Assembly: GCA_009192285.1 (NCBI GenBank)
Contig: WBVU01000004.1
Location: forward strand, 682,001 to 746,000
DNA: 64,000 nucleotides
Direction of reading: 5' to 3'
DNA from: Morchella semilibera
Lineage: Eukaryota; Ascomycota; Pezizomycetes; Pezizales; Morchellaceae
The notes beneath the pieces were generated by a model. That model was not told where the DNA came from, ran no database searches, and was given only the letters and a program-made list of their open reading frames with translations. A program made the position numbers and the translations under genes. This document shows, in pieces, positions 40,047 to 40,999 of the stretch (position 1 is the stretch's first letter; each line of letters opens with the position of its first letter).

Positions 40047-40999
40047 CTACTGCCTTTGGTACGTGACCTTGACAATCTTGTCCTCCAATACCATCCCACC
40101 CATCCCTTCCTTTGCACCAATAGCCCCTTCCAATTGCTCGAATTCCACGAACGCAATCCCCTTCCTTCCCGGTACCATACGCACTTCCTTGAACCCGTCG
40201 AAGCGCCCAAATAACGAGGTGAGCGTATTCTCGTCTGTGTCGTCGGGCAGATTCTGCAAGAATAATGTAGTATTTGGTGGAAGATATTCGTCTGGGATTT
40301 GTGGGGCTGCGGCAGGAGCAGTAGATTTGAGCCCGCCTCCGGTCTTCTTGGCAGTGGCTTTTGGTGCGTCTGCGGCTTGCGGAACTGCCCCGGTACCGGC
40401 TGCAGGTCGGCGTTGGGATTCAATGGCCGCAAGGGCTTGCTTGCGCTCTATTTCACATCGATTAGCTCAGTAAGCACAGCCTACATGCAAGAAAAACAGA
40501 GGTAATTACCTTTCTCCGCCAGCCTTCGTCTCTTATGTGCTTCAAACTCGACACTATCCTCCCCAGCATCTCGCTTTACGGTCGCATCGCTGCGGGTCTT
40601 CGCGAAGGCAAGGACCATGGGCTTATCAAATAGAGGAAATGCCTGGACCTCCTTGATGGCTTGTTCAGCGGCTTGTGGAGAGTCAAAAACCACAAAAGCT
40701 TGTCCCTTGGCCTTCAGGTTCTTTTTTGCGACAAGGTCGATAATGTTTCCATACTGGGAGAAGATGGTAGTAAGAGACTGTTTGAGCAGAGGGATCTTAA
40801 TCGATTCCTCGAGGTTACGGATCTACAGGGATATGTTAGTGGGTTTCTAGAAGCTCGGGGGGTAGTGAGCAAAGAGCTACATAGACTCTAGACAAGTCGT
40901 TAGTGTTGTTACCAACCAAAATATGTGGAAGGGGGGGTATTACGTGCAAGACGGAGTACCAGCAGATACTGTCGCGGCAGGCGGTGAGTTAGAGGCCAT
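40047..40999 (-). CDS. U1A/U2B''-type snRNP protein with two RRMs and a 7-nt microexon
   Basis: Spliceosomal RNA-binding protein of the U1A/U2B''/SNF family, expected to bind a stem-loop of U1 or U2 snRNA. Exons: 40999-40944, 40887-40881 (7 nt), 40822-40510 and 40447-40047, with introns of 56, 58 and 62 nt; the total is 258 aa and closes in phase. The microexon AGTCTAT supplies part of RRM1 RNP2, giving TVYIRNLEESIKIPLLKQSL; RNP1 is KGQAFVVF. A basic, Ala/Pro-rich linker leads to a C-terminal RRM2 with TTLFLQNLP and GIAFVEF. Both RRMs and the linker match the family. Without the microexon RNP2 is lost and the frame breaks. Whether it acts on U1 or U2 cannot be told. Confidence 0.93.

Follow-up and report, generated by a model that had tools for sequence, protein, structure and literature searches.

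A predicted seven-nucleotide coding exon completes the RNP2 motif of a U1A-type gene in the morel Morchella semilibera

The window analysed here, a 64,000-nt stretch of the Morchella semilibera genome, carries on its minus strand what is probably the U1A (usp102-type) gene of this morel, and with high confidence we take the seven bases AGTCTAT near its 5′ end to be a real, constitutively included coding exon. The gene runs from an ATG at 40999 to a stop codon ending at 40047 (258 codons plus stop) and is divided into four exons, all read on the minus strand. Exon 1 (40944..40999, 56 nt) contains the ATG, codons 1–18 and the first two bases of Thr19, ending in TGC AC; its residues 1–19 are identical to those of a Morchella importuna database protein (P0001) apart from V11A. 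Intron 1 (40888..40943, 56 nt, phase 2, GTAATA...ACTAAC...TCTAG; GTAATA...CACTAACGACTTGTCTAG) is followed by the microexon AGTCTAT (40881..40887), which encodes the last base of Thr19, Val20 and Tyr21 and lies in the RNP2 of the first RNA recognition motif (RRM1). Intron 2 (40823..40880, 58 nt, phase 0, GTAGCT...ACTAAC...CTGTAG; GTAGCT...CCACTAACATATCCCTGTAG) separates it from exon 3 (40510..40822), which starts with ATC CGT AAC CTC and encodes RRM1 from Ile22 onward and the first part of the linker. Intron 3 (40448..40509, 62 nt, phase 1, GTAATT...GCTAAT...AATAG) precedes exon 4 (40047..40447), encoding the linker, RRM2 and the stop codon. The spliced junctions read TGC AC|A GTC TAT|ATC CGT, giving Cys-Thr-Val-Tyr-Ile-Arg. 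Signals and frame place the seven bases among microexons, defined as internal coding exons under ~15–51 nt between two spliceosomal introns.

The original prediction of a 7-nt microexon finishing the RNP2 of a U1A/U2B''-family protein was right in both coordinates and reading, TVYIRNLEES being found in the M. importuna protein as well, and its joined frame of 258 codons plus stop with no frame error was confirmed on the minus strand. It had also placed an ACTAAC branch point about 14 bases before the microexon; this too held, with the branch A located 13 nt from the 3′ end of intron 1 (counted inclusively; 14 and 15 nt for introns 2 and 3). That prediction named one branch box, and intron 2 was found to have an ACTAAC box of its own.

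A protein search with the spliced product returned 1,210 matches at E ≤0.001, and residues were counted on the 120 listed of these. The best match was M. importuna P0001 (258 aa, 96% identity over the full length), which carries PSCTVYIRNLEES at the microexon position, indirect support for the predicted presence of the microexon in the mature mRNA; exon structures in M. importuna and the other species were deduced from their proteins. Among the 120 listed homologues, T[VIL]Y[VICA] preceded the conserved N-L in 107 (105 with a stricter pattern), S-V-Y-V was present in 5, and 8 had neither pattern. The Thr and Tyr of the RNP2 T-x-Y are obtained solely when the microexon is included. Alignment with solved structures placed Val20-Tyr21 without gaps opposite positions 12 and 13 of human U1A (NHTIYINNL), so that Tyr21 pairs with Tyr13. 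Conserved aromatic residues on strands 1 and 3 are reported to stack through their side chains on bases C5 and A6 (PMC2203988), and taken together with the alignment this suggests that Tyr21, supplied by the microexon, is the RNA-stacking tyrosine of RRM1. The Pfam RRM_1 score was 88.1 bits with V-Y, and 86.1 and 86.0 bits without; being almost insensitive to these two residues, it neither helps nor harms the case for the microexon. No relatives of the protein were found in the viral contigs or in the bacterial and archaeal genome contigs searched.

U1A rather than U2B'' is the likely identity of the gene. The product has two RRM domains joined by a linker (Pfam RRM_1 in two stretches, 88.1 bits), and its structure matches extend over the full length of human U2B'' and both RRMs of U1A. 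The best solved-structure match speaks against U1A by a small margin, human U2B'' scoring 151.1 bits, versus 147.5 bits for U1A. A separate, single-RRM U2B''-like gene with an unbroken TIYITNL is present on contig C4 (C4:1411913 region; L011:1462-1776 and on), its best matches being U2B'' chains at 84.2 bits, compared with 76.2 bits for the best U1A chain. Since this second gene accounts for U2B'', the gene in the window is more likely U1A; usp102 is the name that the Pyronema relative bears in its source. The earlier assignment to U1A/U2B'' is thus retained at the level of the family and refined to U1A as the more likely member. The frame of the C4 gene breaks after ...IFGKEM, probably at an intron. 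On the contig pairs C9/C10 and C12/C13, RRM matches of identical score recurred at almost matching positions, as would be seen had one region been assembled twice, as separate copies or haplotypes. The snRNA loci of the genome (L016-L027) comprised five U1-like loci, two of them above the family cut-off, and seven U2-like loci, six of them above it.

We enumerated splice models with one or two introns of at least 35 nt, GT or GC donors, running from the ATG to exon 3. Among those staying open into exon 3, T-V-Y-I was given by one model only. The other models with V-Y directly before I-R-N-L used the same 7-nt exon with different exon 1 donors, or a 5-nt exon, and all models lacking the microexon lost V-Y. 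One of these has a single 147-nt intron that starts with a GTATCT donor at 40969 and uses the acceptor at 40823, giving AAT-IRNLEES and making the 7-nt exon a chance occurrence. It is the sole one-intron GT-donor model to stay in frame (four more use GC donors), it resembles the Tuber database protein P0002, likewise without V-Y before IRNLEES, and RRM_1 is still detected in its product (86.1 bits). However, it removes the RNP2 Val-Tyr found in 107 of the 120 listed homologues, conflicts with M. importuna P0001, would contain two branch boxes and two acceptors, and is over twice as long as the other introns of the gene; we regard it as very unlikely. Stwintrons (spliceosomal twin introns) are reported in Pezizomycotina, where they are removed by consecutive reactions (PMC6616335), and the 121-nt interval between exons 1 and 3 could be read as one, lost completely in two steps without leaving an exon behind. 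We considered it as a candidate and rejected it: a stwintron leaves the frame open when the whole interval is out, but once all 121 nt are gone, exon 3 follows exon 1 in the wrong frame, which closes after 54 codons, and V-Y is lost, making this reading extremely improbable. Chance was assessed on first-order Markov sequences of the 121-nt stretch. An open in-frame exon of ≤30 nt occurred in 47% of 20,000 such sequences, and because in-frame exons of this size are so common by chance, an open reading frame alone is little proof. Of 200,000 sequences, 357 contained an AG-N7-GT exon that completes an RNP2-like x-[VIL]-[YF], and 4 had, in addition, a branch box ahead of each acceptor (58 of 200,000 with the real last 30 nt retained); a looser count of such chance exons gave 49 of 20,000. 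The case for the microexon is one that rests on residues, branch boxes and homologues, and not on frame alone.

A different alternative is that the microexon acts as a regulated switch: skipping or retention would cost the protein RRM1 and bring U1A levels down, perhaps with U1A itself in control. The expectation that skipping would destroy RRM1 was borne out: omission of the seven bases shifts the frame, with a stop after 54 codons, 204 nt upstream of the junction at intron 3. Retention would likewise truncate the protein, to 19 codons for intron 1 and 35 codons for intron 2. The weak donor of intron 2 (5/9) and the reported 20-nt microexon switch of Trichoderma Xlr2 (PMC11121469) also favor regulation. 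The genome's U1 genes have TTGCAC at the core of their stem-loop II loop (CAUUGCAC; L016 and L017). Within the 1,601 nt surrounding the U1A-type gene, this motif has a single occurrence, with 0.21 expected; it forms the last six bases of exon 1 (40949-40944, minus strand), abutting the 5′ splice site of intron 1. As a U1A autoregulatory site, this candidate was rejected: the match is post hoc, the locus reads CUUGCAC with the first base A1 changed to C, and in predicted folds the motif does not appear in a U1-like loop. In human U1A, loss of A1, to G and similarly to C, is reported to cost ~5 kcal/mol (PMC2203988). The regulated skipping put forward originally is unsupported, since splice sites in filamentous ascomycetes are reported to be paired by intron definition (PMC6616335) and retained introns, not skipped exons, are reported to dominate in fungi, skipped exons averaging 3% of skipped-plus-retained events across fungi and protists (PMC2397502). 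The accompanying idea of autoregulation finds no support either, the sole U1A-like motif in the locus having the costly change at its first base. A regulated switch is accordingly unlikely, and so is autoregulation. A related and similarly improbable scheme would have U1A homeostasis operate through its own microexon, the weak intron 2 donor making splicing dependent on the strength of the U1 snRNP, to which U1A contributes. In it, intron 2 would be retained when U1A is low, or U1A at high levels would bind UUGCAC abutting the donor of intron 1 and block that intron. If it were true, either route would end translation within 36 codons, and the gene would contain a sensor specific to its lineage, formed by the entry of intron 2 beside an old intron.

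The preferred reading, a constitutive 7-nt exon, calls for nothing beyond ordinary splicing. Introns of 56 and 58 nt, each with a donor, an ACTAAC branch site and an acceptor to itself, would be recognised singly by intron definition, and because recognition would take place across the introns, the 7-nt exon need not be recognised as an exon and its length would be irrelevant. Two successive ordinary splicing reactions would then leave AGTCTAT in the mRNA, supplying the end of Thr19, Val20 and Tyr21 to the RNP2 strand of RRM1. We infer that the transcript is spliced in this way in the cell, and likewise the order of the two reactions, constitutive inclusion of the exon and its birth by entry of intron 2 seven bases downstream of an older intron 1. 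The U1 5′ end in this genome's U1 genes is AUACUUACCU, and the donor match to the consensus against it was 6/9, 5/9 and 7/9 for introns 1, 2 and 3, that of intron 2 being the weakest; were splicing to fail, intron 2 would more probably be retained than the microexon skipped. A donor and intron-length model drawn from 264 kb of the genome was dropped: frame-restoring GT...AG pairs with a branch box numbered 122 donors, versus 127–175 for five wrong dinucleotides, so that such pairs were no commoner than the controls. A second attempt with 163 branch-box sites (GTAGCT 4 vs 1, GTAATA 4 vs 4, GTAATT 2 vs 4) was too thin. Neither model separated real introns from controls.

To examine the site in relatives, we inspected the nine records among the listed homologues that name species of the order Pezizales. 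Four of the nine models were broken exactly at the microexon site: Tuber reads STIRNLEES, Pyronema TVPVRN and Geopyxis CTYVRN, and the Sphaerosporella model lacks the entire CTVYVRNL. The other five (Morchella, Rhizina, Terfezia, Peziza and Wilcoxina) were intact. Damage elsewhere was confined to 2 of 107 other records (P0080 and P0115, in which V-Y or V is missing at the site), giving a Fisher P of 2.5e-4 for 4/9 vs 2/107, a test that left out the close relatives P0004, P0008, P0009 and P0010. With these four counted as Pezizales the proportion was 6/13 (P 1.2e-5), P0008 and P0010 being merely late starts; the records are mutually related, so both P values serve as a guide only. Gene finders thus struggle at this site in Pezizales, as a hidden microexon would cause, and other causes are possible. 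The claim that such exons are nearly always missed by predictors therefore stood in part, for the four broken models among the nine named Pezizales, and fell short for M. importuna, whose database protein is correct here. Outside Pezizales, P0080 (Candelina) has lost V-Y and carries 22 extra residues between T and VRNLEER, resembling a translated intron, and the P0115 (Bacidia) model is also damaged at the V-Y site.

The same records offer a view of the age of the introns. P0009 is a read-through of genomic DNA: where intron 3 lies, it has 20 additional residues, the first being G as from G|GT. A translated insert at the intron 3 position was observed in both P0009 and P0010, which suggests that intron 3 is common to these relatives. 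At the RNP2 site P0009 reads T-D-P-H-S-V-Y-V-R-N-L. Its T-D could be encoded by ACTGAC, which is a branch box, and its S by AG and one further base. The sequence is compatible with translation of the last part of an intron that stops at the same point as intron 1, after which V-Y continues directly into V-R-N-L with intron 2 absent. An S before V-Y-V is also present in P0038 and P0111, and in the annotated P0106 and P0109. These strings suggest that intron 1 is older and widely shared in Pezizomycotina, and that intron 2 was gained later, in the Morchella line and perhaps Tuber, seven bases downstream, cutting out the microexon; as a Thr to Ser change would also explain the S, this reading of intron age is a lead and not a result. 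Under it, entry of intron 2 beside the older intron 1 would have created the 7-nt exon. The possibility that intron 2 arose by duplication of intron 1 was considered and rejected: the local alignment yielded only TACCCCCC, equalled by 191 of 2,000 shuffles.

Fungi are already known to contain very small exons, and the morel U1A exon is a well-supported new example and no new kind. The CYP621A P450 genes of Fusarium are described as having a 1-nt exon that likewise lies in a filamentous ascomycete, in a conserved motif, keeps the frame and is often mis-annotated (PMC12940212); it differs in being 1 nt rather than 7 nt long, in a P450 rather than a splicing factor, and in its confirmation by RNA reads, whereas the morel exon is predicted from sequence. 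Xlr2 of Trichoderma, also a filamentous ascomycete, is reported to have a microexon that likewise completes a conserved binding domain near the N-terminus and was missed in gene models, but it is 20 nt long and its inclusion is glucose-dependent (PMC11121469). The P450 genes of Phanerochaete similarly contain coding exons of 2–10 codons between small introns, the shortest reported being 6 bp, in a basidiomycete and a P450 family (PMC1184071). Plant microexons of 1–15 nt, as in APC11 and VPS55, are likewise tiny exons of conserved genes, described as constitutive and widely mis-annotated with damaged N-termini; in contrast to the morel exon, they belong to plants, are conserved across land plants and are backed by RNA-seq (PMC8831610). 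The human U1A and U2B'' proteins of the U1A/U2B''/SNF family have the same two RRMs, RNP2 T-[VI]-Y-I, RNP1-like GQAF[VI]VF and linker, whereas in the morel gene the RNP2 strand is encoded across three exons. In the open-licence literature, we found no report of a microexon from Morchella or from the U1A gene of any fungus. The result is a further well-supported ultra-short exon, in an ascomycete gene of the core splicing machinery, and it illustrates how an exon of this size can conceal an RNA-contacting residue. Homology-guided annotation that allows exons of <10 nt would repair the public U1A models damaged at this site. Should intron 2 prove to be the younger of introns 1 and 2, the morel gene would provide a clean case of microexon birth through intron gain.
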